A stretch of 64,000 bases of DNA, taken from assembly GCF_003258595.1 (NCBI RefSeq), contig NZ_QHHQ01000001.1:1736001-1800000 (forward strand), given 5' to 3'. Shown piece by piece: positions 7,333-52,965 of the stretch. This stretch comes from Acuticoccus sediminis. Its GTDB lineage: Bacteria > Pseudomonadota > Alphaproteobacteria > Rhizobiales > Amorphaceae. The notes beneath the pieces are model-generated. The model searched no databases, was not told the origin of the DNA, and worked only from the letters and a program-made list of their open reading frames with translations. The position numbers and the translations under genes were made by a program. Positions within the stretch are counted from its first letter, which is position 1. The number at the start of each line of letters is the position of its first letter.

Positions 7333-8333
7333 CAGATCTTCCCGCTGAGCTCGGCGATCACGCCTTTCACCGTCTTGCCGTCGGCGCGGGCGGTGTAGGT
7401 CAGGGCCATGCGGTGTTGCAGGACGGGCTCGGCGAGGGCGGCCACGTCGTCCTTGGAGGGGGCGAGGCGGCCCTGCAGCAGCGCCCGCGCGCGGCAGGCC
7501 AGCATCAGCGACTGCGAGGCGCGCGGCCCGGGACCCCAGGCGATGACGCCGTCGACGTCCGGGTTCTCGTGCGGGCGGGCCGAGCGGACGAGGTCCAGGA
7601 TCGCGTCGACGACGCTCTCGCCCACCGGCATGCGGCGCACCAGCCTCTGGATGCCCACCAGCTCCTCGCGGCTCAGCACCGGCGAGGGCTGCACGTCCGA
7701 CATGAGCGTGGTCTCGAGCAGGATCCGGCGCTCGGCCTCGCGGTCCGGATAGACGACGTCGACCTGCATGATGAAGCGGTCGAGCTGCGCCTCGGGCAGG
7801 GGGTAGGTACCCTCCTGCTCCAGCGGGTTCTGCGTCGCGAGGACATGGAACGGCGTGGGCAGGTCGTGCGCCTCGCCGGCGACGGTGACGAAGCCCTCCT
7901 GCATCGCCTGCAGCAGCGCCGACTGCGTGCGGGGTGACGCGCGGTTGATCTCGTCTGCCATCAGAAGTTGGGCAAACACCGGACCCTTGATGAAACGGAA
8001 GGCACGCTCGCCGGTCGTCGACTGCTCCAGCACCTCCGCGCCGAGGATGTCGGAGGGCATCAGGTCCGGCGTGAACTGGATGCGGTTCTCGGTGAGGCCG
8101 AGGACCGTGCCGAGGGTCGCGACCAGCCGCGTCTTGGCAAGCCCCGGGACACCCACGAGCAGGGCGTGACCCCCGCAAAGCACTGCGATCAACGACCGTT
8201 CGACCACGTCACCCTGGCCGAAGATGATCCGCTCGATCTCGGTTTTGGCTGCGCCGAGGCGTTGAACGGCCGCCTCGATGGCCTTCACTTCGTCGAAGTC
8301 ATCCTCGCGTTCGAGGACGTTGTCCATGCTCAT
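7332..8333 (-). CDS. MoxR-family AAA+ ATPase
   Basis: This 333-residue AAA+ ATPase has Walker A GVPGLAKT (61-68), Walker B LLMADE (123-128), the MoxR signature FTPDLMPSDI and sensor region ATQNPLEQEGTYPLPEAQ. MoxR ATPases work with DUF58 and VWA proteins as chaperones for cofactor insertion or complex assembly. This is the first gene of the minus-strand operon. It is divergent from the DUF1285 gene across a 175-base region that should hold both promoters. A second MoxR belonging to a different subfamily lies at 41.5 kb. Confidence 0.93.
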   Translation of the reverse strand: MSMDNVLEREDDFDEVKAIEAAVQRLGAAKTEIERIIFGQGDVVERSLIAVLCGGHALLVGVPGLAKTRLVATLGTVLGLTENRIQFTPDLMPSDILGAEVLEQSTTGERAFRFIKGPVFAQLLMADEINRASPRTQSALLQAMQEGFVTVAGEAHDLPTPFHVLATQNPLEQEGTYPLPEAQLDRFIMQVDVVYPDREAERRILLETTLMSDVQPSPVLSREELVGIQRLVRRMPVGESVVDAILDLVRSARPHENPDVDGVIAWGPGPRASQSLMLACRARALLQGRLAPSKDDVAALAEPVLQHRMALTYTARADGKTVKGVIAELSGKI

Positions 8334-37708: not shown

Positions 37709-39310
37709 ATGTTTATGTCGTACGTGAATAGAGTTTCATGGGTTGCATTGAGTCTATGCCTCGTGACCGGCCCCGTTTCGGCTCAGAACGCGCCGCAGAC
37801 GGACAAGCCCAACATTCTCGTCGTCTGGGGTGACGACATCGGACAGTCCAACATCTCGGCCTACACGATGGGGCTCATGGGCTACCAGACGCCCAACATC
37901 GACCGGATCGCCTCCGAAGGCATGATGTTCACCGACTACTACGGCGAGCAGTCCTGCACCGCCGGCCGGTCCTCGTTCATCATGGGCCAGTCGGTGTTCC
38001 GGACCGGCCTGTCCAAGGTGGGCCTTCCGGGCGCCGACCTCGGCATGCGCGAGGAAGACCCGACAATCGCCGGCCTCCTGAAGGCACAGGGTTACGCGAC
38101 CGGGCAGTTCGGCAAGAACCACCTCGGCGACAAGGACGAGCATCTGCCGACCAACCACGGCTTCGACGAGTTCCTCGGCAACCTCTACCACCTCAACGCC
38201 GAGGAAGAGCCCGAGAACGAGGACTATCCGGGTGACATGAAGCTGCCGGACGGCTCCACCTTCCGCGAGAAGTTCGGGCCGCGCGGGGTGCTCCACTCCT
38301 TCGCCGACGGCGAGATCCAGGACACCGGCCCGCTGACCAAGAAGCGCATGGAAACGGTCGACGACGAGACCGTCGCCGCCGCCATCGACTTCATCGAGCG
38401 CAAGACCGAAGAGGGCATGCCCTGGTTCGTGTGGTGGAACGGCACCCACATGCACTACCGCACCCACGTCGCGCCGGACTTCCGCCAGAAGGCCGACGAG
38501 ATCGCGGGCCGCCATCTCGACGAATACCAGGCGGGCATGGTGCTGCACGACATGCACGTCGGCCAGCTGCTCGACAAGCTCGACGAGCTCGGCATCGCCG
38601 ACAACACGCTGGTGTTCTACTCGACCGACAACGGCCCCCACATGAACACCTGGCCCGACGCGGCGATGACGCCCTTCTGGTCCGAGAAGAACACCAACTG
38701 GGAAGGCGGCTGGCGCGTGCCGGCGATGGTGCGCTGGCCCGGCCGCATCGCGCCCGGCTCGGTCACCAACGAGATCGTGCACCACATGGACTGGCTGCCG
38801 ACCTTCCTCGACATGGCCGGCGAGCCCGACATCAAGGCCAAGCTCGCCTCCGATGAGGGTTACGACGCGATCGGACGGCACTACCGCGTCCATCTCGACG
38901 GCTACGACATCCTGCCCCTGCTCACCGGCGAGACCGACAAGTCCCCGCGCGAGGAGATCTTCTACTTCTCCGACGACGGCGACCTGATGGCGCTGCGCTG
39001 GCACGACTGGAAGATGCTCTTCATGGAGCAGAAGGCCTGGGGCACGCTTCGGGCCTGGATCGAGCCGTTCACGGTGCTGCGCACGCCGCTGATCTTCAAC
39101 CTGCGCCGCGACCCGTATGAGCGGTCCTACCGGACGTCGAACACGTACTACGACTGGATGATGGACCGCGCGTACATGCTGGTGCCCGCCCAGCAGTACG
39201 TGGCGAAATTCCTGGAGACCTTCCAGGAGTTCCCGCCGCGCCAGAAGGCGGCGAGCTTCAGCCTCGACCAGGTGATGGAGAAACTGTCCCCGGTGAACGT
39301 CAACCACTGA
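37709..39310 (+). CDS. Exported arylsulfatase (type I, formylglycine-dependent)
   Basis: This 533-residue sulfatase has a signal peptide (1-25, cleavage after VSA). Active-site parts are the metal Asp pair in VVWGDDIG (42-43), the formylglycine motif C-T-A-G-R (C83-R87, the CxAxR variant of CxPxR), K136 and H138 in GKNHLGD, and Asp-Asn in YSTDNGPH (307-308). It hydrolyses sulfate esters in the periplasm after Cys is converted to formylglycine; no modifying enzyme is in this window. I chose the ATG at 37709 because GGGAG is 8 bases upstream. The HAD gene follows after 190 bases. Confidence 0.92.
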   Translation: MFMSYVNRVSWVALSLCLVTGPVSAQNAPQTDKPNILVVWGDDIGQSNISAYTMGLMGYQTPNIDRIASEGMMFTDYYGEQSCTAGRSSFIMGQSVFRTGLSKVGLPGADLGMREEDPTIAGLLKAQGYATGQFGKNHLGDKDEHLPTNHGFDEFLGNLYHLNAEEEPENEDYPGDMKLPDGSTFREKFGPRGVLHSFADGEIQDTGPLTKKRMETVDDETVAAAIDFIERKTEEGMPWFVWWNGTHMHYRTHVAPDFRQKADEIAGRHLDEYQAGMVLHDMHVGQLLDKLDELGIADNTLVFYSTDNGPHMNTWPDAAMTPFWSEKNTNWEGGWRVPAMVRWPGRIAPGSVTNEIVHHMDWLPTFLDMAGEPDIKAKLASDEGYDAIGRHYRVHLDGYDILPLLTGETDKSPREEIFYFSDDGDLMALRWHDWKMLFMEQKAWGTLRAWIEPFTVLRTPLIFNLRRDPYERSYRTSNTYYDWMMDRAYMLVPAQQYVAKFLETFQEFPPRQKAASFSLDQVMEKLSPVNVNH

Positions 39311-39384
39311 TCCAACGGACACGCGCCGCCGCATCTCCCGGCCCCATCGGGCCGGGCGGTGCCCGCGGCGCGGGTCGACCCGCT

Positions 39385-39434
39385 GGAGCCGGGGCCCGGA
39401 CGCATGTCCACGGGTCCGGCTCCGGTCTGTTGTT
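39385..39434 (+). terminator. Terminator of the sulfatase gene
   Basis: A long hairpin has outer arms GGAGCCGG (39385-39392) and CCGGCTCC (39416-39423) and further inner pairing, followed by GGTCTGTTGTTT. A shorter 8-bp GC stem (39337-39344 with 39349-39356) precedes it. Confidence 0.6.
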
Positions 39435-39500
39435 TCGACATGCATTCCGGGTGGCGCTGCCGCCGCGCGCGGATGCGCCTACGTTTCCGAGGAGCTTTTC

Positions 39501-40469
39501 ATGCGATTGATTGCAATCGTGCTGGCCGTCGTCCTGCCGGGCATGGCGCTGGCCGATCCGCTGCCGTCCTGGAACGACACCGACGCGAAGGCGAAGATCA
39601 TCGCGTTCGTCGACAGCGTGACGGACCCGGCGGCCGACACCTACGTCACCCCGGCGGACCGCGTCGCGGTGTTCGACAACGACGGCACGCTCTGGGCGGA
39701 GAAGCCCATGTACGTCCAGGCGTTCTTCGCGCTCGACCGGCTGAAGGCGATGGCCGAGAAGGACCCGTCGGTGCTTTCGTCCGACGTCCTGAAGGCCGCG
39801 GCCGAGGGCGACATGAAGACCGTCGCCGCGAGTGGTGAGAAGGGGCTCCTCGAGATCATCGACACCACTCACACCGGGCTCCCGGTGGAGACGTTCATCG
39901 AGGATGCGCGCACCTGGCTCGCCACGGCGAAGAACCCGGCGAAGGACAAGCGCTTCGAGGACATGGTCTACCAGCCCATGCTGGAGCTTCTCAGCTACCT
40001 GCGGGACCAGGGTTTCTCGACCTACATCGTCTCCGGCGGCGGGATCGACTTCATCCGCGCCTTCTCGGAGAAGGCCTACAACATCCCCGTCAACCAGGTG
40101 ATCGGCTCCAGCGTGAAGTCGAAGTTCGAGATGGTGGACGGCGTCCCGACGGTGATCAAGGAACCCGGCGTCTTCTTCGTCGACGACAAGGCCGGCAAGC
40201 CGGTGGGCATCAGCGGGCGCATCGGCAAACGTCCGATCTTCGCCGCCGGCAACTCGGACGGCGACTTCGAGATGCTGCAGTGGACCACCGCCGGCGAAGG
40301 TCCGCGCTTCGGCCTGATCGTCCACCACACCGACGCCGAGCGTGAGTTCGCCTACGACCGCGACAGCAACGTCGGCAAGCTCGTGCGCGGCCTCGACGAG
40401 GGGCCGGGGCTCGGCTGGCTGATCGTCGACATGGCGAAGGACTGGGCGGCGGTCTGGCCGGATGAGTGA
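39501..40469 (+). CDS. Exported HAD-family phosphatase
   Basis: This is a 322-residue haloacid-dehalogenase-type hydrolase with a signal peptide (1-18, cleavage after ALA). Motif I is VAVFDNDGTLW (nucleophile D59, D61), motif II STYIVSGGGIDF, and motif IV RPIFAAGNSDGDFEM. It would be a periplasmic phosphomonoesterase; the substrate is unknown. Exported HAD enzymes are unusual. It lies between the sulfatase and the PPK2 operon and has its own terminator, so it is probably a separate unit that scavenges phosphate. Confidence 0.88.
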   Translation: MRLIAIVLAVVLPGMALADPLPSWNDTDAKAKIIAFVDSVTDPAADTYVTPADRVAVFDNDGTLWAEKPMYVQAFFALDRLKAMAEKDPSVLSSDVLKAAAEGDMKTVAASGEKGLLEIIDTTHTGLPVETFIEDARTWLATAKNPAKDKRFEDMVYQPMLELLSYLRDQGFSTYIVSGGGIDFIRAFSEKAYNIPVNQVIGSSVKSKFEMVDGVPTVIKEPGVFFVDDKAGKPVGISGRIGKRPIFAAGNSDGDFEMLQWTTAGEGPRFGLIVHHTDAEREFAYDRDSNVGKLVRGLDEGPGLGWLIVDMAKDWAAVWPDE

Positions 40470-40491
40470 TCGCGAGCGCCCAGAAGAGCGG

Positions 40492-40521
40492 CCGGCGGCC
40501 CCCGGGACGCCGGTTTTGTTT
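40492..40521 (+). terminator. Intrinsic terminator of the HAD gene
   Basis: A 6-bp GC stem (CCGGCG 40492-40497 with CGCCGG 40508-40513) is followed at once by TTTTGTTT. It separates the HAD gene from the PPK2-led operon. Confidence 0.7.
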
Positions 40522-40572
40522 CCAGCGGCCGGACCCTAGACTTTCCATGGCAAAGGACAGCGGGGACCGGGC

Positions 40573-41469
40573 ATGGACGTAGCGAAACTCGCGGCGCGGC
40601 ACCGGGTCGACGATGGCAAGAGCTTCCGGCTCGACAGCGTCGACCCCTTCGACCACGACGGCATCGACATCGTGAAGGACGAGGCGAAGGACTACCTTGC
40701 CGCGAACGTCGCCGAGCTGCGCGACCTGCAGGAGAAGCTCTACGCCGAGCGCCGGACCTCGGTGCTCATCATCCTCCAGGCGATGGACACGGCCGGCAAG
40801 GACAGCGCGATCGAGCACGTCATGACGGGCATGAACCCGCAGGGCTTCCAGATCCGCTCCTTCAAGGCGCCGAGCCACGCGGAGCTCGACCACGACTTCC
40901 TCTGGCGCCACGCGGTGGCGCTGCCCGCACGCGGCCACATCGGCATCTTCAACCGCTCGCACTACGAGGAGGTGCTGGTGGTGCGGGTCCACCCGGAGCT
41001 GCTGGAAAACCAGCGCGTCGCCTACGAGCCCTCGCTCTGGAAGAAGCGCTTCAAGAGCATCCGCAACTTCGAGCGGCACCTCAGCCGCAACGGCACCATC
41101 GTCCTCAAGTTCTTCCTGCACATCACCGCGGACGAGCAGGCCCGGCGACTGCTCGACCGGATCGACACCCAGGCCAAGCATTGGAAGTTCGAGCTCGGCG
41201 ACCTCAAGGAACGGGACCGCTGGGAGGACTACATGGCGGCCTACGACGACTTGGTCCGCAACACCGCGCGCGACTACGCGCCGTGGTACGTCGTGCCGTC
41301 CAACAACAAGTGGTACTCGAGGCTCGTCATCTCGTGCGCGATCCTCGAGGCGCTGCGCCGGCTCGACCCGCACTTCCCGGACGCGGAGCTGTCGGACCTC
41401 GAGGGAATGAAACAGGCGCGCGAGCGGCTCGAGGGCGAGCTCGGCGGCGCACCGGAGGGGGTTCCATGA
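40573..41469 (+). CDS. Polyphosphate kinase 2 family (PPK2, class III-like)
   Basis: This 298-residue PPK2 protein transfers phosphate between polyphosphate and nucleotides. The Walker A is QAMDTAGKDS (69-78), followed by NRSHYEEVLVVRVHPE (Walker B) and the lid KKRFKSIRNFERHL. QAMDTAGKD and NRSxYEEVLVVRVHPE are the pattern of class III PPK2, which can phosphorylate AMP and ADP to ATP; the class assignment is by motif only. Its stop overlaps the moxR start by 4 bases, so it heads the MoxR-Bat-cytochrome operon. Confidence 0.9.
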   Translation: MDVAKLAARHRVDDGKSFRLDSVDPFDHDGIDIVKDEAKDYLAANVAELRDLQEKLYAERRTSVLIILQAMDTAGKDSAIEHVMTGMNPQGFQIRSFKAPSHAELDHDFLWRHAVALPARGHIGIFNRSHYEEVLVVRVHPELLENQRVAYEPSLWKKRFKSIRNFERHLSRNGTIVLKFFLHITADEQARRLLDRIDTQAKHWKFELGDLKERDRWEDYMAAYDDLVRNTARDYAPWYVVPSNNKWYSRLVISCAILEALRRLDPHFPDAELSDLEGMKQARERLEGELGGAPEGVP

Positions 41470-42473
41470 GCCAGGAGCTGGCCGATCCGCGCGCGGCGAT
41501 CGCCGCGCTGAGGGAGCGGATGGGGGAGGCGATCATCGGCCAGCGCGAGGTGATCGAGCGGCTCCTGATCGGCCTCCTCGCCAACGGCAACCTGCTGGTC
41601 GAGGGCCTGCCGGGCCTTGCCAAGACACGCGCGATCAAGGCGCTGGCGAAGAACCTCGAGTGCGACTTCAGCCGCATCCAGTTCACGCCCGACCTCCTGC
41701 CGTCGGACGTGACCGGCACCGAGGTCTACTTCCAGGCCGAAGGCGGCGGCTCGTTCCGCTTCGAGCCCGGCCCGATCTTCGCCAACATCGTGCTTGCGGA
41801 CGAGATCAACCGCGCACCCGCCAAGGTGCAGGCCGCGCTGCTGGAGGCGATGGAGGAGCGCCAGGTCACCGTCGCCGGCAAGACGCACGCCATGGCGCCG
41901 CTCTTCATGGTGATGGCGACCCAGAACCCGGTGGAGCAGGAAGGCACCTACCCGCTGCCCGAGGCGCAGATGGACCGCTTCCTGATGCACGTCCTCATCA
42001 CCTATCCGCCCGTCGAGGACGAGGTGGAGGTGATCCGCCTCGTCCGGCGCGAGGAGATCGCCGCCAACGCGCCGCCGCAGGCGGACGGCGCGGCCGGACC
42101 GGCGGCCGCGCCCATCGCGCAGGAGGCCGTGTTCGCCGCCCGCCGCGCGATCGCCGCGATCCACGTCGCCGACGCGATGGAGCGCTACATGGCCGATCTG
42201 GTGAACGCGACGCGCGTCCCGGACGCCTACGGCGACGACCTGAAGCGCTGGATCGAGGTCGGGGCGAGCCCCCGCGCCTCCCTCGCGCTCGACCGCTGCG
42301 GCCGTACCCACGCCTGGCTCGCCGGGCGCGACTACGTCGACCCGGAGGACGTGCGCGCGATCGTGGCGGACGTCATGCGCCACCGCCTCGGCCTGACCTA
42401 CGAGGCCCAGGGCGAAGGCGTCACGCCGGACGCCGTGGTCGCCGAGGTCGTGCGCCAGGTCGCGCTGCCGTAG
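41466..42473 (+). CDS. MoxR-family AAA+ ATPase (Bat operon)
   Basis: This 335-residue ATPase has Walker A GLPGLAKT (47-54), Walker B IVLADE (108-113), FTPDLLPSDVTGTEVY and MATQNPVEQEGTYPLPEAQ. It belongs to a different MoxR branch from the copy at 7.3 kb. It is translationally coupled to PPK2 upstream and followed after 12 bases by DUF58. With the downstream VWA and BatD genes it forms an aerotolerance (Bat)-type system, thought to be a chaperone or assembly machine for envelope proteins. Confidence 0.93.
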   Translation: MSQELADPRAAIAALRERMGEAIIGQREVIERLLIGLLANGNLLVEGLPGLAKTRAIKALAKNLECDFSRIQFTPDLLPSDVTGTEVYFQAEGGGSFRFEPGPIFANIVLADEINRAPAKVQAALLEAMEERQVTVAGKTHAMAPLFMVMATQNPVEQEGTYPLPEAQMDRFLMHVLITYPPVEDEVEVIRLVRREEIAANAPPQADGAAGPAAAPIAQEAVFAARRAIAAIHVADAMERYMADLVNATRVPDAYGDDLKRWIEVGASPRASLALDRCGRTHAWLAGRDYVDPEDVRAIVADVMRHRLGLTYEAQGEGVTPDAVVAEVVRQVALP

Positions 42474-42485
42474 GGGGGAAGGGCG

Positions 42486-43466
42486 ATGCGCGACCGGGCG
42501 GCACGGATCAGGACAGGCACCCTCCCGCCGGCCGCGCCGGCGGGGGAGGCCGATCCGCGCGTCCACGCGACGCTCTCCCACCTGCGCGCGCTGGAGGGGC
42601 GCGCGCGCCAGCTCAGCTTCCTGCCGCGCCAGCCGGCCCGTTCGGTGCTGAACGGCCGCCACGCCTCGCGGTTGCGCGGCCGCGGCCTCAACTTCGAGGA
42701 GCTGCGCGACTACCTCCCGGGCGACGACGTGCGGTCCATCGACTGGAAGGTCACCGCCCGCACCGGGACGCCGCACGTGCGCGTCATGACCGAGGAGCGC
42801 GACCGTCCGGCGCTCATCGTCGTGGACCAGCGCATGTCCATGTTCTTCGGCTCGCGCCTCAACATGAAGGCGGTCACCGCCGCCGAGGCGGCCGCGCTCG
42901 CCGCATTCCGCATCCTCGACCAGGGTGACCGCGTCGGCGGGATCGTCTTCGGCGACGCGCTGATCGCCGAGGTCCGCCCCCAGCGCAGCCGCCGCGCGCT
43001 CGACCGTTTCCTGACCGCGCTCGCGGACGCCAACGCGCTCCTGAGCGCAGACGCGCCCGCCGTCCCGCCGGTGTCGCTGACGGAGGTGCTGCGCAGCGTC
43101 TCGCGGATCGCCGCCCGCAACCACCTCGTCATCGTGCTGAGCGACTTCGACGTCGTCGACGACGAGACGCACCGCCTCGTGTCGGCCCTGTCGCGCCACA
43201 ACGACCTGGTGCTGATCCTCGTCACCGACCCGTTCGCGGACGATGTCCCCGAAGGCGTGCGGCTCGTCGTCTCCGACGGCGAGCTTCAGGCCGAGATCGA
43301 CACCGCCGACCACACGACCTATCGGGACCTCAAGGCGCTGGCGAAGGGGCGGCTCGCGGAGATCCTCGACTGGCAGCGCTCCCTCGGCGTCGCGGTGCTG
43401 CCGCTGACGGCCGCGGAGGAGACGCTGCCGCAGATGCGCCGCCTGATGGGGCTCGCGCAGAGATGA
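42486..43466 (+). CDS. DUF58 protein (Bat operon)
   Basis: This is a 326-residue DUF58 protein. The family core is GLNFEELRDYLPGDDVRSID followed by WKVTARTGTPHVRVM, then PALIVVDQRMSMFFGS, the VWA-like strand with DxxMS in place of DxSxS. Its stop overlaps the DUF4381 start by 4 bases. It should act in the cytoplasm with MoxR. Confidence 0.9.
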   Translation: MRDRAARIRTGTLPPAAPAGEADPRVHATLSHLRALEGRARQLSFLPRQPARSVLNGRHASRLRGRGLNFEELRDYLPGDDVRSIDWKVTARTGTPHVRVMTEERDRPALIVVDQRMSMFFGSRLNMKAVTAAEAAALAAFRILDQGDRVGGIVFGDALIAEVRPQRSRRALDRFLTALADANALLSADAPAVPPVSLTEVLRSVSRIAARNHLVIVLSDFDVVDDETHRLVSALSRHNDLVLILVTDPFADDVPEGVRLVVSDGELQAEIDTADHTTYRDLKALAKGRLAEILDWQRSLGVAVLPLTAAEETLPQMRRLMGLAQR

Positions 43467-43999
43467 ACGGCGAGGACGCCCCCCTCAAGGCCGGGAGCCT
43501 CGTCGAGCTGATCGACCGGCTCGTCGACCCGCTACAGCCCGCGCCGGTTTCCATGCGGCCGGAGACGGCGGGATGGGCGGTCCTCGCCGTGGTCCTCGCG
43601 CTGGCGCTTCTCTTCGCCGCGTGGCGCTGCTGGCGGCACTGGCGCGCCAACGCCTACCGCCGCGCCGCCCTCGCCGAGCTCGGTGCCGCCGGGGACGATC
43701 CGTCGGCGATCGCCGCGATCCTGCGGCGGACGGCGCTGGCGGCGTGGCCGCGCGGCGAGGTTGCCTCGCTCTCGGGCGAGGCATGGCTCGCCTTCCTCGA
43801 CGCGACGGGAGGGCGTGGCGCCTTCGCCGGAGGCCCCGGCCGGGCCATCCTCGCCGCACCGTACCGCCGCGACGCCGCCCCGATGCCGGAGCTGACCGCG
43901 CTCGCTGCTCGCTGGATCCGCCGCCACCGCGTCCGCCCGTCCTCCCGAAAGGGCCGCGCGACACGGGCGGCGCAGACGCCGGCGGAGGCGCGGTCATGA
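43463..43999 (+). CDS. DUF4381 membrane protein
   Basis: This is a 178-residue protein with one helix (AGWAVLAVVLALALLFAAW, about 36-54) and a basic cytoplasmic or periplasmic region containing RRAALAELGAAGDDPSAI and SLSGEAWLAFLDAT, the DUF4381 signature. DUF4381 proteins sit between DUF58 and VWA genes in Bat operons. Both ends overlap neighbours by 4 bases. Confidence 0.87.
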   Translation: MNGEDAPLKAGSLVELIDRLVDPLQPAPVSMRPETAGWAVLAVVLALALLFAAWRCWRHWRANAYRRAALAELGAAGDDPSAIAAILRRTALAAWPRGEVASLSGEAWLAFLDATGGRGAFAGGPGRAILAAPYRRDAAPMPELTALAARWIRRHRVRPSSRKGRATRAAQTPAEARS

Positions 44000-44982
44000 T
44001 TTCGCTCGGCCTTCCCTGGGCGCTCCTCCTCCTGCCGGCGCCGCTCCTCGTATGGTGGCTGGTGCCGCCGCGGCGCGAGCAGGTGCCGGCGGTACGCTTC
44101 CCGTTCTTTCGCCAGGTCGTCGGCACGGCGGGCGCCGAACCCGGCCCCGGCGCGGTCGTCCTGTCGCGCTCGCGGCTGCAGATGCTCGCCTCGATCCTCG
44201 TGTGGGCGCTCATCGTGCTGGCGCTCGCCCGGCCGGAGCGCGTCGGCGCGCCGGTGGAGATCACGCGTGCCGCCCGCGACGTCGTCCTCGCCATCGACAT
44301 CTCCGGCTCCATGGACACGCGCGACTTCAGGGACGAGACAGGCGCGCCGCAGCAGCGCCTCGCGGCCGTGCGCGACGTCGTGCGGACCTTCGTGGAGGGA
44401 CGAGAGGGCGACCGGATGGCGCTCATCGTCTTCGGCTCGAAGGCCTACGTGCAGGCGCCGCTGACGGAGGACCTCGACACCATCCTCGACCTGCTGGACC
44501 GGACCGCGGTCGGCATGGCGGGGCCGCACACCGCGCTCGGCGATGCCATCGGCCTCGCCATCCGCACCTTCGAGACGAGCGACATCGACCAGCGCCTCCT
44601 GATCCTCCTGTCGGACGGCAGCGATACGTCGAGCCGGATGAGCCCGGTCAACGCGGCGGAGATCGCCAAGTCGAAGGGCGTGACGATCTCGACCATCGCC
44701 GTCGGCGACCCGAACGCGTCGGGCGAGGACCGGGTGGACCTCGCCACGCTGAAGGACATCGCCGCGCGGACCGGCGGCGGCGCCTACGTGGCCTCCGACG
44801 AGGCGGGCCTCGCCGAGGTCTACGACCAGATCGACGCGCTCACCCCGCGCGAGGGCGAGACGATCTCCTACCGGCCGCGCCAGTCGCTGGCCTATCTGCC
44901 GCTGCTAGCGGCCGCGCTGATCGGCACCGCGGTGGTTGCGCTGCTGCACTTCGGCACGCTGCGCCGGAGGGCGGCGGCATGA
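43996..44982 (+). CDS. VWA-domain membrane protein, BatA-like
   Basis: This is a 328-residue BatA/B-type protein. Two N-terminal helices (about 5-25 and 62-80) and a C-terminal one (near 295-315) frame a VWA domain with an intact metal site VLAIDISGSM (D101, S103, S105). LLSDGSDTSS and VTISTIAVGDP are further VWA strands. It probably presents a metal-dependent protein-binding surface to the periplasm in complex with the other VWA protein and MoxR. It is coupled at both ends by ATGA overlaps. Confidence 0.92.
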   Translation: MISLGLPWALLLLPAPLLVWWLVPPRREQVPAVRFPFFRQVVGTAGAEPGPGAVVLSRSRLQMLASILVWALIVLALARPERVGAPVEITRAARDVVLAIDISGSMDTRDFRDETGAPQQRLAAVRDVVRTFVEGREGDRMALIVFGSKAYVQAPLTEDLDTILDLLDRTAVGMAGPHTALGDAIGLAIRTFETSDIDQRLLILLSDGSDTSSRMSPVNAAEIAKSKGVTISTIAVGDPNASGEDRVDLATLKDIAARTGGGAYVASDEAGLAEVYDQIDALTPREGETISYRPRQSLAYLPLLAAALIGTAVVALLHFGTLRRRAAA

Positions 44983-46487
44983 CCGACCTCGGCGCCATCG
45001 TCGACGCCTTCCATTTCATCCGCCCGTGGGTGCTCCTCTTGGTGCCGGTGATCGCCCTCCTGTGGTGGTCGGCGCGCCGGGCGCACGTGCGGCGCGACGT
45101 GCCGGCGGAGGGGATCGCGCCGCACCTGCGCGCCGCGCTCACCGTCGGCGCGCACGGACGGCGGCGGCTCGAACCGATCGACGGGGTCGCCGTCGTGCTG
45201 CTCCTCGTTTCTGTCGGGGCAGCGGGGCCGACGTGGTCGCGCGTGCCGGACCCGTTCGCGGCGCAGTCCGCGCCGATGGTCGTCGCGCTCAAGGTGACGC
45301 CGTCGATGGAGGCGACCGACGTCGCCCCGTCGCGCCTCGAACGGGGCAAGCAGAAGATCCGGGACCTGCTGGAGCTGCGCGCAGGCGCCCGGACGGCGCT
45401 CGTCGCCTACGCCGGAACCGCGCACGTCGTGGTCCCGATGACCGAGGACCCCGGCGTGATGGTGCCCTACCTCGAGGGCCTCTCGCCGGAGGTGATGCCG
45501 CAGGAGGGCGACCGCGCCGCCGATGCGCTTGCCGCCGCCGAGGGCCTGCTCGGGGGCGAGGACGGGCCCGGCGGCATCGTCTTCGTCGCCGACGCTCTCG
45601 ACCCGGCAGACGTCGCGGCGCTCGACGCGGCGGCCTCGGCCGTCGCGGTGCTCGCGATGCTGCCGGCGGGGACCAACGACCGCGGCCTCGACGCGCTCGC
45701 CGCGCCGGTGGTCCCGGTCACGCCGGACGGGTCCGACGTGCGCCGCGTCGAGCACACTCTCAACGCGGCCTACCGCCAGGCGCTGCTGGAGGACGGTGCC
45801 CAGCCGTGGGAGGATCAGGGCCACTGGCTTGCCATCCCCGCCGCGCTGCTCGGCCTCTTCTGGTTCCGCCGCGGCTTCACCATGCGCTGGGCGCTGGTTC
45901 TCGCGCTCGCCGCCGCGATCGCGCCGGTCCGCCCGGCCGAGGCGGGCGTGGTCGACTGGTTCCTCACGCCGGACCAGCAGGGGCAGCGCGCCTTCAATTC
46001 CCGGCAGTATCGCCGCGCGGCGGAGCTCTTCGTCGATCCGTTGTGGCGCGGCTATGCCCTCTACCGCGACGGGCAGTACGACGAGGCGATCAGCGTCCTT
46101 TCGCGCGTCGAGACGGCCGAGGCGGCCTTCATCACGGGCATGGCGGCGCTGAAGTCGCGCCACTACCGGGACGGCGTGCGCGCCTTCGAGACCGTGCTGG
46201 CGCGCGACCCGGACTATCCCGGCGCAGCCGAGAACCTCGCCACGGCAAAGGATATCGTCGCCTACGTCGAGCACATGCAGGAGACCTCGGACACGGGCGA
46301 GGACCGCGGCATCGGCGCCGACGAGGTGCGCTACGACAACGAGTCCGGCCGGGGCGTCGATACCGAGATCGAGGCGCCCGAGGAGGGGGCGTCCGGCCTC
46401 CTCACCACCGACCAGTGGATGGCGACGGTGGACACCCGCACCGGCGATTTCCTGCGCCAGCGCTTCGCGCTCGAGGCGCGGCAATGA
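44979..46487 (+). CDS. VWA-TPR fusion membrane protein, BatB/BatC-like
   Basis: This is a 502-residue protein. Helices near 15-30 and 67-83 precede a VWA-like domain, a helix near 285-310 follows, and the C-terminal part has TPR-like repeats (GYALYRDGQYDEAISVLSRV, HYRDGVRAFETVLARDPDYP). It thus fuses BatB and BatC functions. The metal site is lost: where DxSxS is expected the sequence reads LKVTPSM (Lys105 for Asp). It probably pairs with the intact VWA protein upstream. The ATGA overlaps at both ends indicate coupled synthesis. Confidence 0.88.
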   Translation: MTDLGAIVDAFHFIRPWVLLLVPVIALLWWSARRAHVRRDVPAEGIAPHLRAALTVGAHGRRRLEPIDGVAVVLLLVSVGAAGPTWSRVPDPFAAQSAPMVVALKVTPSMEATDVAPSRLERGKQKIRDLLELRAGARTALVAYAGTAHVVVPMTEDPGVMVPYLEGLSPEVMPQEGDRAADALAAAEGLLGGEDGPGGIVFVADALDPADVAALDAAASAVAVLAMLPAGTNDRGLDALAAPVVPVTPDGSDVRRVEHTLNAAYRQALLEDGAQPWEDQGHWLAIPAALLGLFWFRRGFTMRWALVLALAAAIAPVRPAEAGVVDWFLTPDQQGQRAFNSRQYRRAAELFVDPLWRGYALYRDGQYDEAISVLSRVETAEAAFITGMAALKSRHYRDGVRAFETVLARDPDYPGAAENLATAKDIVAYVEHMQETSDTGEDRGIGADEVRYDNESGRGVDTEIEAPEEGASGLLTTDQWMATVDTRTGDFLRQRFALEARQ

Positions 46488-47752
46488 CACGGTTCGCGCG
46501 GCTCCTCGCGTGCCTGGCGCTCCTTCTGCTCGTGGCCCCGGCCGCCGCGCAGGAGGCGCCGCGCCTCAAGGTGGACCTCAGCGCCACCGAGGCGATCCCG
46601 GGGCAGGCGGTCTCGCTGCGCCTCACCGTGCTGGTGCCGAGCTTCATGCCGAAACCGCCGGTGTGGCCGACGTTCGAGGCGCCGAACCTCTGGGTCCGCG
46701 TCGCCTCCACCGGGCCGACGAGCGAGACCGTCGGCGGGGAGACCTGGTCCGGCGTCACCCGCCGCTATCTCCTGTCGCCGATGGTGCCGGGCACCATCGC
46801 GCTTGCGCCCTCGCAGATCCTCGTGACCTACGCGGGCGCCACGCCGGCCGACGTCCGGAACGCGGCGCTCACCACCGACCCGGTCTCCCTCGTCGGGGTG
46901 GTGCCGGCGGGGGCGGAGGACCTCGACCCCTTCATCGCCGCCGAGGAGCTGACGCTGAAGGAGACCGTCGAGGGAACGCCGGATGCCATGCGGCCCGGCG
47001 ACAGCGTGGTGCGGACGGTGACGGCGCAGATCCGCGGGACGTCGCCGATGTTCCTGCCCCGGCTCCTGCCGCCGACCGACATCCGCGGCGTGCGCACCTA
47101 TCCCGACGAGCCGGTGCTCGCGGAGTCGAGCGACCGCGGCAAGATCTCCGGAACCCGGACCGAGCGGGTGACTCTCCTCGCCGAGGGGGGCGGGGAGGGG
47201 GAGGCGCCGGCGGTGTCGATCCGCTGGTACGACCTCGGCAGGAAGGCCGTGGCGACGGCGGAGGCCGAAGGCTTCGCCGTCCATGTCGACGGCCCGCCGG
47301 TCGCCGACGACGAGCCGGTCGACTGGCGGGCCATGGCGCTGATCGCGGGGGCGGCGGCCGTGCTGGCGGCGATCGTCGCGTTCGCCGTTCGCCGCATCGT
47401 CCCGCCTGTCCGAAGGGCCGCCGCCGCGCGGATCGCCGCCTGGCGCGCCTCGGAGGGCCAGGCCCACCATGCCCTCATGCGCACGGTCCGGGCGCGCGAC
47501 CACGCGGCCCTGCGTCCCGCGCTCGACCTCTGGGCCGAGCGGACGGCTGCGGGCGACCCGCGCCACGACCCGGACGTCGCCGCCGCGCTCGCGGCGCTCG
47601 GCGCGGCACGCTATTCGGACGAGGCCGGCGCCGCGTCCGGCGAGGAGGAGGGGTGGCAGCGCCTCGCCGCCGCTCTCGCCGGAGCGCGCAGGACGACGAA
47701 TTCACGGCATCGCGACGCCGTGCTCCCTCCCTTGAACCCCGGCGCGCCCTAA
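46484..47752 (+). CDS. BatD-family protein
   Basis: This is a 422-residue exported protein: signal peptide 1-22 (cleavage after AAA), tandem beta-sandwich domains (VDLSATEAIPGQAVSLRLTV, VVRTVTAQIRGTSPMFLPRL), one helix near 283-305 and a basic cytoplasmic tail. This is the BatD (aerotolerance) layout. It follows the VWA-TPR gene with a 4-base overlap, and the octaheme cytochrome begins 7 bases after it. Confidence 0.87.
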   Translation: MTRFARLLACLALLLLVAPAAAQEAPRLKVDLSATEAIPGQAVSLRLTVLVPSFMPKPPVWPTFEAPNLWVRVASTGPTSETVGGETWSGVTRRYLLSPMVPGTIALAPSQILVTYAGATPADVRNAALTTDPVSLVGVVPAGAEDLDPFIAAEELTLKETVEGTPDAMRPGDSVVRTVTAQIRGTSPMFLPRLLPPTDIRGVRTYPDEPVLAESSDRGKISGTRTERVTLLAEGGGEGEAPAVSIRWYDLGRKAVATAEAEGFAVHVDGPPVADDEPVDWRAMALIAGAAAVLAAIVAFAVRRIVPPVRRAAAARIAAWRASEGQAHHALMRTVRARDHAALRPALDLWAERTAAGDPRHDPDVAAALAALGAARYSDEAGAASGEEEGWQRLAAALAGARRTTNSRHRDAVLPPLNPGAP

Positions 47753-47759
47753 GGTCCCC

Positions 47760-49703
47760 ATGATCCGACTAGCCGCTCTCCTGTGCCTTCTCCTCGTGCT
47801 GCCCGCCGCGGCGCAGGACGCCCCGGTCGCCGAGGCGCCGGCCTACGTCGGCACCAGCGCCTGCGCGTCGTGCCATGCCGACGCGACGGCGGCCTGGACC
47901 GGCTCACACCACGCCCTCGCATGGACCCGCCCCTCGCCGGAGACCATCGTCGCCGACTTCGACGGAACCAGCTTCGAGGCGGACGGCATGACCGCCCGGT
48001 TCCGGGTCGAGGACGATGGCTCCTACCACGTCAACGTCACGGAGAAGGACGGCGTGACGACCGACTACCGCGTCCATTCGGTCGTCGGCATCGCGCCGCT
48101 GCAGCAGTACCTCCTCGAGACCGAGCCGGGCCGGCTGCAGAGCTTCGACGTGGTGTGGGACACCGAGAAGGGCGGCTGGTTCCATCTCTATCCGGAGCTG
48201 GACCTGCCGCCGTCCGACGGGCTCCACTGGACCGGCCCCTACAAGAACTGGAACGCCCGCTGCGCCGTCTGCCACGCGACGGGCTTCGAAAAGAACTACG
48301 ATCCCGCGTCGGGCCGCTACTCGTCGGACGCGGCGGAGATCGGGGTGGGCTGCGAGGCCTGCCATGGGCCGGGCTCCGCACATCTCGCCTGGGCGAAGGG
48401 CGAGCCGATGCCGCAGACGCGCATGCCGCTCGACCATTTCGGCTTCACGCAGTCGTTCTCCTCCGGCGAGGCGACGATCTTCCAGTGCGGCGGCTGCCAC
48501 TCCCGCCGCTCGGCCTTCCTCGCCGACAGCCCGGTGCCGGGGACGCCGTACCACGACACGTACGGCCTCTCGCTGCTGCGGCCGGGCCTCTATCATGCCG
48601 ACGGGCAGATCCAGGACGAGGTCTACGTCCTCGGCTCCTTCCTCCAGTCCAGGATGTACGCCCGCGGCGTGACCTGCATGAACTGCCACGACCCGCACAG
48701 CGCGACGCTGAAGGCCGAGGGCAACGCCGTCTGCACCCAGTGCCACAGTCCGGCCGGGAACCCGGACTTCCCGACCCTGCGCCTGACCGAGTACGACAGC
48801 CCGGCGCACCATTTCCACGAACCGGGCACCAAGGGCGCGGAGTGCAAGTCGTGCCACATGCCCGAGCGCGTCTACATGGGCAACGACTGGCGGGCCGATC
48901 ATTCCCTGCGCGTGCCGCGGCCGGACCTTGCCGCCACCACCGGCGCGCCGGACGCCTGCACCACCTGCCACACCGACCGCGACGCGGCCTGGGCCGCCGG
49001 GGAGATCGCGACGCGCTTCCCCGATCCGCGCAATCGCACGCCGCACTTCGGCACCACGCTGGCGGCGGCCTGGGCCGACCCCGCCGCCGCGACCCCCGAC
49101 CTGCTGGCGCTGGTGGAGGACGAGAACGTGCCCAACATCGCCCGCGCCACTGCGCTGTCGATGCTCGGCCAGGGGAGCGACGCGGACGTCGCCGGGCGCC
49201 TCGCCGCCTACCTCGCCGACCCGGATCCGCTGATGCGCACCGCCGCCGTCGAGGCGCAGCGGCCGGCGAACCCGCAGGATCGGGTGCTGGCGTTGATCGA
49301 CAGCCTCGCGGACCCGTCGCGGGCCGTCCGCATGGAGGCGGCCCGCGCGCTGCTCGACGCGCCGATCGCCCGCATGCCACGCCCGATCGCGGCGAACCTG
49401 TCCAGCGCGATGGCGGAATGGCGCGCGGCGATGATGGCCAACATCGACTTCCCCGAGACCCACCTCCAGCTCGGCGGGATGGCGCTCGTCATGCGCAACA
49501 TACCGGCGGCGACGGCTGCGTTCCGTGAGGTGGTGGAGATGGACCCGCAGCGCATCGACGCGTGGGTGATGCTCGCCCGGATCACCGCGGCGACGTCGAC
49601 CGCCGAGGACGTCCGCGCCGTCCTCGACGAGGCGGCGGCGAAGAACCCGGAGGACCCGACGATCCGCGAATTGCAGGCGCAGCTCGCTGGGCACAGGCAG
49701 TAG
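47760..49703 (+). CDS. Octaheme c-type cytochrome with HEAT/TPR C-terminal region
   Basis: This is a 647-residue exported protein (signal peptide 1-19). Eight CxxCH haem sites lie at 35, 168, 198, 243, 306, 325, 362 and 400; the spread resembles cytochrome c554/octaheme families. From about 420 it has HEAT-like repeats (RATALSMLGQGSDADVAGRL, RAVRMEAARALLDAP) and then TPR-like helices (LALVMRNIPAATAAFREVVE). It probably transfers electrons in the periplasm; a catalytic role cannot be judged. AAGG overlapping the BatD stop serves as ribosome site, so it belongs to the MoxR-Bat operon. No cytochrome maturation genes are present in the window. Confidence 0.92.
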   Translation: MIRLAALLCLLLVLPAAAQDAPVAEAPAYVGTSACASCHADATAAWTGSHHALAWTRPSPETIVADFDGTSFEADGMTARFRVEDDGSYHVNVTEKDGVTTDYRVHSVVGIAPLQQYLLETEPGRLQSFDVVWDTEKGGWFHLYPELDLPPSDGLHWTGPYKNWNARCAVCHATGFEKNYDPASGRYSSDAAEIGVGCEACHGPGSAHLAWAKGEPMPQTRMPLDHFGFTQSFSSGEATIFQCGGCHSRRSAFLADSPVPGTPYHDTYGLSLLRPGLYHADGQIQDEVYVLGSFLQSRMYARGVTCMNCHDPHSATLKAEGNAVCTQCHSPAGNPDFPTLRLTEYDSPAHHFHEPGTKGAECKSCHMPERVYMGNDWRADHSLRVPRPDLAATTGAPDACTTCHTDRDAAWAAGEIATRFPDPRNRTPHFGTTLAAAWADPAAATPDLLALVEDENVPNIARATALSMLGQGSDADVAGRLAAYLADPDPLMRTAAVEAQRPANPQDRVLALIDSLADPSRAVRMEAARALLDAPIARMPRPIAANLSSAMAEWRAAMMANIDFPETHLQLGGMALVMRNIPAATAAFREVVEMDPQRIDAWVMLARITAATSTAEDVRAVLDEAAAKNPEDPTIRELQAQLAGHRQ

Positions 49704-51849: not shown

Positions 51850-52965
51850 GTGGCACGGATCAACGGATATCTCGCCTTCGACATGTACGACCTGTCCGTC
51901 GAAGACGGGGACGTTCTGGAATACAACGGCCGGAGAATCGTCATCGGCGACGGCGACTACAGAGCCGTCTACCTCGGCGACTTCGACTACGACTCGAACG
52001 GCGCCGTCCACGGCAGCCTGACAGGCTTCGAGTATTATGCCGGCCACCGCCTCGCGGTGTCCGCGACCAACTTCGACGTCGACGCCAACTTCGCGTTCGA
52101 CGCGCTCACCTCGGGCGATTCCGACGCGCTCGTGATGGCCGTGACGAACGGGGACGACGCCATCTTCGGCTCCAGCGGGCCGGACGGCCTTGCCGGCTAC
52201 AACGGCGACGACCTGATCTACGGTTACGCCGGCGACGACGACCTCTACGGTGATGCCGGCGACGACGAGATCAGCGGCGGCCCCAACGACGACCTGATCT
52301 ACGGCGGTCCGGGCCGGGACTATCTCCTGGGCGACGAGGGCAACGACACGATCAACGGCAACCAGGACGACGACACGATCTACGGCGGCCCGGGCCGTGA
52401 TGTCCTGTCCGGCGGCGGTGCCGACGACATCATCTACGGCGAGCAGGGCGTCGACGTGCTGGTCGGCGGTTTCGGCAACGACACGCTGTACGGCGACCAG
52501 GCCGAGGACAAGCTGCGCGGCCGTTGGGACGACGACGTCCTCTACGGCGGCAACGGCAAGGATGAGATCCTCGGCAATGCCGACGACGACAAGCTGTTCG
52601 GCCAGAACGCCCCGGACTTCCTCGTCGGCGGCCTCGGCGCCGATACGATCTCCGGCGGGCACGGCAACGACCGCTTCCACTACCGGACGGCCGCCGAGGT
52701 GGACGGTGACGAGCTGACGGACTTCGACACCGGCAACGACATCATCGCGCTGCGCCGCTTCGACGCCAACGAGTCGGAGGCCGGCGTGCAGGGTTTCTCC
52801 TTCATCGGCAACGACGGGTTCTCGGGTGACGGCGGCGAGCTCAGGGCCGTGGTCCAGGGCGGCGACACGATCGTAACCGGCGACGTGACGGGCGACGGCG
52901 ACGCCGACTTCGTCCTCACGGTGCTCGGCGTGACGAACCTCAGCGAGTCCGACTTCCTGATCTAG
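51850..52965 (+). CDS. RTX-type Ca2+-binding secreted protein
   Basis: This is a 371-residue acidic protein without an N-terminal signal. Residues 1-100 are a unique beta-rich domain. Residues 101-271 are nineteen uninterrupted nine-residue RTX units of the form GGxGxDxLx. A C-terminal domain (VDGDELTDFDTGNDIIALRR ... TNLSESDFLI) resembles the secretion/peptidase M10-type C-terminal region. It would fold with Ca2+ outside the cell after type I export; no exporter is nearby. The GTG start has GGGAAG 6 bases upstream. The first domain gives no enzymatic clue. The promoter looks EcfG-dependent. Confidence 0.87.
   Translation: MARINGYLAFDMYDLSVEDGDVLEYNGRRIVIGDGDYRAVYLGDFDYDSNGAVHGSLTGFEYYAGHRLAVSATNFDVDANFAFDALTSGDSDALVMAVTNGDDAIFGSSGPDGLAGYNGDDLIYGYAGDDDLYGDAGDDEISGGPNDDLIYGGPGRDYLLGDEGNDTINGNQDDDTIYGGPGRDVLSGGGADDIIYGEQGVDVLVGGFGNDTLYGDQAEDKLRGRWDDDVLYGGNGKDEILGNADDDKLFGQNAPDFLVGGLGADTISGGHGNDRFHYRTAAEVDGDELTDFDTGNDIIALRRFDANESEAGVQGFSFIGNDGFSGDGGELRAVVQGGDTIVTGDVTGDGDADFVLTVLGVTNLSESDFLI
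52150..52662 (+). repeat. RTX nonapeptide-coding repeat tract
   Basis: Nineteen consecutive 27-base units each encode one RTX nonapeptide (for example GDDLIYGYA, GNDTLYGDQ, GADTISGGH). The units are diverged at DNA level, so it is an old protein repeat rather than a recent tandem amplification. Confidence 0.85.

Follow-up and report, generated by a model that had tools for sequence, protein, structure and literature searches.

A sulfatase gene island in Acuticoccus sediminis encodes a MoxR-Bat module and an octaheme cytochrome, a candidate third formylglycine-generating system

The DNA analysed here (the window) is a 64,000-nucleotide stretch from Acuticoccus sediminis, which carries at 37709-49703 a row of ten genes for an exported arylsulfatase, a HAD-type hydrolase, a polyphosphate kinase 2 (PPK2), a MoxR-Bat module and an exported octaheme c-type cytochrome (Table 1). 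Sulfatases need one residue to be made into formylglycine (fGly), and two enzymes are known for this conversion, FGE (SUMF1-type, PF03781) and anSME (TIGR03942). Both are encoded beside sulfatases of the family found in the window, and their presence is complementary to that of the cytochrome. We tentatively propose, at slightly less than even confidence, that the ten genes form an island for the activation of an exported, Ca2+-dependent fGly sulfatase, in which the MoxR-Bat module would fold the enzyme or load its Ca2+, the cytochrome would replace FGE or anSME, and PPK2 would be a passenger.

A ten-gene row led by an S1 sulfatase

The sequence-only reading of the window had described the eight genes from PPK2 to the cytochrome as one tight operon; the sulfatase and HAD hydrolase genes upstream were not in its gene set. 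Order, strand and spacing of the eight genes are borne out, with five four-base overlaps and gaps of 12 and 7 bases at the seven junctions. Wider gaps separate the sulfatase from the HAD gene (190 bases) and the HAD gene from PPK2 (103 bases). A promoter and terminator scan gave no signal above chance. Pfam agrees with the families named for PPK2, MoxR, DUF58, DUF4381, VWA and VWA-TPR, and a MoxR AAA+ ATPase is thus encoded together with VWA partners (PF07726, PF00092, PF13519, DUF58). The BatD assignment stood in part: the window protein lies under the cut-off, and among four homologues encoded at this position in other genomes one exceeds it (L175, 24.6 vs 24.1 bits), one falls just below it (L067) and two have no BatD match. 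The last gene indeed encodes an octaheme cytochrome with a signal-like N-terminus; TPR scores above the cut-off in its tail and HEAT below it.

Table 1. Genes of the ten-gene row in the window
Feature	Position	Strand	Length	Domain evidence
S1 arylsulfatase, exported (Sec-like signal)	37709-39310	+	533 aa	PF00884 E=1e-49
HAD-type hydrolase, exported	39501-40469	+	322 aa	PF12710; 4ovy relative, E=4.5e-97
Polyphosphate kinase 2 (PPK2)	40573-41469	+	298 aa	PF03976 and TIGR03709 above cut-off; closest solved chain 6an9
MoxR-type AAA+ ATPase	41466-42473	+	335 aa	PF07726 (AAA_3) E=6e-63
DUF58 protein	42486-43466	+	326 aa	PF01882
DUF4381 protein	43463-43999	+	178 aa	PF14316
VWA protein, BatA-like	43996-44982	+	328 aa	PF00092; BatA models under cut-off
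VWA-TPR protein, BatB-like	44979-46487	+	502 aa	PF13519 and TPR_2
BatD-like protein	46484-47752	+	422 aa	BatD E=0.22, under cut-off
Octaheme c-type cytochrome, exported, HEAT-like and TPR tail	47760-49703	+	647 aa	8 CXXCH

The arylsulfatase has the domain, the C/S-x-P/A-x-R motif and the Ca2+ ligands (D42, D43, D307, N308) of an S1 formylglycine sulfatase, and its motif is of the Cys type (QSCTAGR, C83). Across 88 aligned sequences D42, D43, C83, R87, K136, H138, H249, D307, N308 and K327 are kept, apart from a change of C83 to Ser in four; the roles of these active-site residues follow excerpts of PMC6388578. All four Ser-type sulfatases come from anSME genomes without the octaheme cytochrome. 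At L178, L179 and L184, QSSTAGR Ser-type sulfatases adjoin an anSME gene and a MoxR-Bat module, in genomes without a PF03781 match at E≤1e-10.

Complementary occurrence of the cytochrome and the known maturases

A close sulfatase (E≤1e-90) was scored in 46 of the 398 genomes of a phylum sample. The cytochrome, searched for in all 398, is found in 27 of these 46 sulfatase genomes vs 8 of the 352 others (p=1e-22). Searching the 46 genomes with PF03781 and TIGR03942 revealed 19 with a maturase only, 15 with the cytochrome only, 12 with both and none with neither (Fisher p=5.3e-5). All 19 cytochrome-free sulfatase genomes carry a canonical FGE or an anSME, and the 15 genomes with neither known maturase all carry the octaheme cytochrome. 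The Cys pair of FGE binds copper, and this pair (GGSxLCxxxYC) defined an FGE as canonical; it was read in 19 of the 20 FGE genomes, G583 being assigned by its PF03781 score alone. On a local FGE profile the canonical FGEs score 228 bits (G022) or above 470 bits. In 13 cytochrome-only genomes there are 25 FGE-domain matches, which score at most 130 bits on this profile and lack the Cys pair. Neither PF03781 (E≤1e-10) nor TIGR03942 (E≤1e-20) has a match in the cytochrome-only genomes G501 and G626, which contain 17 and 11 PF00884 matches respectively. An FGE-domain protein of 262-264 aa without the copper Cys pair was also seen directly adjoining the anSME gene at L245 and L251.

The cytochrome and the two maturases are likewise separated at the level of gene neighbourhoods. 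Around the 46 sulfatases the local label is cytochrome in 15 cases, FGE in 12, anSME in four and none in 15, and no sulfatase has two at once. A canonical FGE occurs in 0 of 123 cytochrome loci, and no FGE or anSME match was found in the 99 loci L035-L133. On a carefully built sulfatase tree that includes the top sulfatase of G552 the labels are mixed, with seven changes of local label. Across seven independent pairs on firm branches, maturase and cytochrome change in opposite directions in five to six cases, show no difference in one to two and never change in the same direction (sign test p 0.031-0.0625; reversed test p 0.031-0.125). On plasmid pRle248d of R. leguminosarum 248 (L304), an FGE-sulfatase unit and a sulfatase-HAD-cytochrome unit lie about 11 kb apart, and M. 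nodulans has an FGE-sulfatase-HAD unit.

Sulfatases are linked to the cytochrome in 54 of the 123 cytochrome loci, a number to which a wider sulfatase profile over several rounds added none. All 55 readable sulfatases in cytochrome loci are Cys-type, and eight were left unread by the motif search. The motifs near the cytochrome differ in kind (QSCTAGR, ALCSPTR, PTCSPTR, ATCTPSR), so the cytochrome appears linked to fGly sulfatases generally. In the 15 cytochrome-only genomes a home-made rule for Sec and Tat signals called 13 sulfatases Sec, one Tat and one without signal (G485, at a contig edge). In this signal analysis the row for G552 is the neighbouring 42% sulfatase and not the top one, and in the sulfatase set G384 is represented by a fragment of 340 residues that runs into a stop. 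Sec-like signals are also found on sulfatases that go with cytosolic-looking FGEs (L173 and L194, judged by eye), so that an argument from compartment is suggestive at most.

The neighbourhoods centred on the cytochrome cover class genomes, the best 80 of 361 genome-contig loci and named plasmids (one without annotation). Nine of the 289 class genomes, among them that of the window, have a cytochrome match above 200 bits, and no close relatives were found in a viral contig collection. A sulfatase or a sulfatase-HAD pair often lies near the cytochrome in the neighbourhoods viewed. Four or more module genes are found in six of the best 80 of the 361 loci, any sulfatase in 28 (tblastn), a HAD gene in nine and a distant PPK2 outside the cluster in five. 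The full array is found in Alloyangia, Poseidonocella and Tepidamorphus; MoxR is missing from the neighbourhoods of SC52, Roseibium and R. leguminosarum 248, and an annotated sulfatase is not nearby in Qingshengfaniella and Alteromonas 76-1. One genome, G007 (contigs C656, C69 and C664), apparently contains three sulfatase-octaheme pairs.

The octaheme cytochrome as a candidate enzyme

In 76 aligned relatives of the cytochrome all eight CXXCH motifs are invariant, as are many non-heme residues. With respect to a possible open coordination site, six His beyond the heme motifs are invariant and a seventh is kept at 96%, for eight hemes. The AlphaFold model (pLDDT 95) places strands between hemes 1 and 2. 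Foldseek matched this model best with OcwA (E=2.8e-12; TM 0.55 by target length and 0.42 by query length), followed by MccA (6.4e-4), and phmmer also aligned the cytochrome with OcwA (E=6e-13). The predicted fold and the heme order are thus those of the OcwA/MccA/NrfA superfamily, and the known proteins nearest to the cytochrome are the OcwA, MccA, NrfA, HAO and c554 multiheme enzymes. MccA octaheme sulfite reductase has a special, long-spaced active-site heme motif; the window cytochrome lacks it and has eight plain CXXCH hemes instead. It further differs from the OcwA/MccA group in its HEAT/TPR tail and in the linkage of its gene to sulfatases. OcwA itself is described, in the accessible parts of PMC6703420, as having two hemes with open sites, as reacting with nitrite and hydroxylamine, as grouping with NrfA/MccA/HAO-type enzymes, and as sharing an extra beta-sheet domain with MccA. 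An enzymatic role of the cytochrome is therefore plausible on the strength of the modelled OcwA-like fold, while the reaction itself is a proposal. Unlike the known maturases, the cytochrome has no FGE or radical SAM domain in a profile scan, and it would hence be at most an analogue of them. Cytochrome c genes near sulfatase genes have likewise been reported from planctomycetes; excerpts of PMC5615132 describe these as PSCyt-domain proteins, which may belong to another family.

While the linkage, the conserved active sites and the complementarity are observations, the candidate route that follows is a proposal. The sulfatase would pass through Sec while its active-site cysteine is still unmodified. 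In the periplasm, the octaheme cytochrome may grip the chain by its HEAT/TPR tail and turn Cys83 into fGly, thereby replacing FGE, which uses O2 and copper, and anSME, a radical SAM enzyme. FGE chemistry requires O2 and electrons and anSME takes electrons away, so either direction of electron flow is imaginable; the quinone pool might be the acceptor or the donor. The MoxR ATPase with the DUF58, DUF4381, VWA and BatD proteins would then fold the sulfatase or load Ca2+, and the HAD hydrolase may work on the same substrate as the sulfatase. The most specific form of this proposal is that the cytochrome is a third formylglycine-generating enzyme, a periplasmic multiheme protein that acts on Sec-exported sulfatases by other means than FGE or radical SAM chemistry, trades electrons with the respiratory chain and is linked to a MoxR-Bat module that finishes the Ca2+ enzyme; this we hold to be possible, while leaning against it. 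If true, it would account for sulfatase activation in many sulfate-releasing bacteria, add a new reaction of c-type hemes and a new aldehyde-tag tool, and provide a defined client for a type of MoxR-Bat system that is poorly understood. No paper title tying sulfatase or formylglycine maturation to MoxR or to a multiheme or octaheme cytochrome was found among the matches listed in a search of open-licence PMC papers.

Several observations weigh against this proposal. The oxidation of a peptidyl cysteine to fGly is not known from c-type hemes. A canonical FGE or anSME is also present in 12 of the 27 cytochrome genomes, including the window's own, and 9 of the 15 cytochrome-only genomes have no cytochrome in the stretch around this sulfatase. 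The tree-corrected pairs are few (7; p 0.03-0.06), and a quick sulfatase tree, in which G552 is again represented by the 42% neighbour, yielded six pairs with p 0.06-0.25; the labels are unaffected by the G552 row. Because the sulfatase and cytochrome searches scored the three best first-look candidates per genome, misses are possible. Among the cytochrome-only genomes, G485 is 87% complete, and G337, G341 and G416 contain a radical SAM match, albeit one of 112 bits, a long way below the anSME cut-off of 349 bits. Eight cytochrome genomes have no close sulfatase; seven of them possess another Cys-type sulfatase. G629 has the cytochrome, yet none of its six PF00884 genes carries the fGly motif, and G553 has in addition a motif of the Ser type, which does not lie beside its cytochrome. 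No sulfatase is present in 38 of the 75 cytochrome loci with at least 8 kb on both sides; 24 of the 123 cytochrome loci had been chosen since the cytochrome stood away from a close sulfatase. Finally, cytochrome b and Rieske genes adjoin the cytochrome in 6 of 128 loci (L107, L108, L116, L122, L133, L303), which also fits a respiratory enzyme and points to the quinone pool as its electron partner.

The cytochrome b and Rieske neighbours, the cytochrome loci without a sulfatase and G629, together with the fold shared with the reductases OcwA and MccA, speak for another reading, in which the cytochrome would be a redox enzyme of respiration or catabolism that is active during the breakdown of sulfated substrates. 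The complementarity would then be a matter of lineage or lifestyle, and another, as yet unknown activator would serve the sulfatases that have neither FGE nor anSME. In line with this, the title of a cited study claims that E. coli has a third system for sulfatase maturation; its enzyme has, to our knowledge, not been identified. Such a role of the cytochrome would leave several facts without a ready account, namely that 0 of the 46 genomes lack all three of cytochrome, FGE and anSME, that no cluster holds two of them, and that every sulfatase read in a cytochrome locus is Cys-type, in spite of the several motif kinds. We regard it as a serious contender that is nevertheless somewhat improbable.

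The MoxR-Bat module, its client and PPK2

MoxR-Bat genes stand beside the sulfatase in 24 of the 46 sulfatase genomes, in varying gene order. This unselected rate counts any MoxR or VWA-TPR match in the stretch around the sulfatase, and two of the 24 genomes, G341 and G630, have just two module genes there (G341 was later found complete except for DUF4381). The module accompanies 12 of the 15 sulfatases with the local label cytochrome, 5 of 12 with FGE, 3 of 4 with anSME and 4 of 15 with none. A role of MoxR-Bat as the fGly-making part was rejected, because the module is found alike in clusters with every maturase type. A set of 50 sulfatase-centred loci from 44 of the 46 genomes (G000 and G022 left out) contains at least four module genes in 21 loci, a HAD gene in 20 and the cytochrome in 13. 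In ten of these 21 loci the cytochrome is present as well. The order may be sulfatase-cytochrome-MoxR-...-BatD (for example L146 and L174) or sulfatase-HAD-MoxR-...-BatD-cytochrome (L054, L066), and other loci are divergent or convergent.

To what extent the linkage is specific was addressed in 23 genomes picked for a linked top sulfatase, with 150 sulfatase places among the matches listed. By choice of the set, every one of the 23 top sulfatases has a strong MoxR gene within 12 kb; among the matches listed, this holds for only 7 of the 127 other sulfatases. Of these seven, four are the second sulfatase of a cluster already counted, two are 56% paralogues that have their own modules, and one adjoins a cluster already counted. 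The module is thus linked to a presumed metal-enzyme client, as in other MoxR/VWA systems. Alternatively, the MoxR-Bat module could have a general role in envelope stress and travel along with sulfatase gene islands, which we consider unlikely. Bat proteins have been proposed to act in oxidative defence (PMC3557215, accessible parts), and 35 of the 60 strong MoxR genes in the 23 linked genomes lie more than 12 kb from any sulfatase among the matches listed. The linkage to this one sulfatase family, however, recurs across many families of bacteria in several orders and orientations, and the second modules adjoin paralogues of the very same sulfatase family.

The sequence-only reading had proposed the octaheme cytochrome as the protein that the module assembles or protects, and PPK2 as the source of nucleotide triphosphate for the motor. 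The tight eight-gene operon speaks for this model, as do clusters elsewhere that link MoxR-Bat and the cytochrome in a different gene order. It is nonetheless very improbable: PPK2 is missing from all other clusters seen, only 6 of the best 80 of 361 cytochrome loci hold the module, and the module stands beside FGE or anSME sulfatases without a cytochrome nearby. Moreover, the Ccm system attaches haem without MoxR. Because the module adjoins such sulfatases and cytochrome loci rarely hold it, the sulfatase is probably the better client, and the earlier interpretation was partly right on the link between cytochrome and MoxR, unsupported on PPK2 and probably wrong on the client.

The module shares its MoxR AAA+ ATPase with DUF58, VWA and BatD-like partners near a presumed metal-enzyme client with NorQ-NorD, CoxD-CoxE, RavA-ViaA, mxaRSACKL and Bat operons, and differs from them in that the presumed client is an fGly/Ca2+ sulfatase. 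The mxaRSACKL genes serve a Ca2+ methanol dehydrogenase. No methanol dehydrogenase client is among the ten cluster proteins scanned. A role in Ca2+ loading or folding is suggested by analogy with such systems, which counts as a further reservation about the activation island. NorQD is said to drive metal insertion (PMC13036017, in part).

PPK2 was found in no other cluster among the 158 cytochrome- and sulfatase-centred loci scanned; the partner that recurs in relatives is the sulfatase. The eight PPK2 matches in these loci are 30-36% identical; in five loci (four of them Ruegeria) they lie kilobases off on the far side of the cytochrome, in L158 far away, and in L141 and L142 they are the genome's own paralogues. 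PPK2 was therefore rejected as a conserved component and is apparently a local addition outside the recurrent unit. As the samples contain no other genome of the window's genus or family, PPK2 may be shared by near kin. It could still supply local ATP in the window genome, yet this would explain nothing elsewhere. Other genomes differ here: in Alloyangia a sulfatase-like fragment separates HAD from MoxR, at the position of the window PPK2 (L047:6789-7139, frame judged by eye), and L036 has a 584-codon frame of alkaline-phosphatase-type appearance between sulfatase and MoxR (also by eye). Another PPK2 of the window genome and an FGE-domain (PF03781) match are about 2 kb apart (G000:C2:957650-960876).

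A second strong MoxR match (AAA_3) is present in the window at 7767-8168 on the minus strand (G000:C1:1743767), about 33 kb from the MoxR gene of the cluster. Downstream of the cytochrome, an open reading frame at 51850-52965 encodes many Gly-Asp-rich, RTX-like repeats, as judged from its translation.

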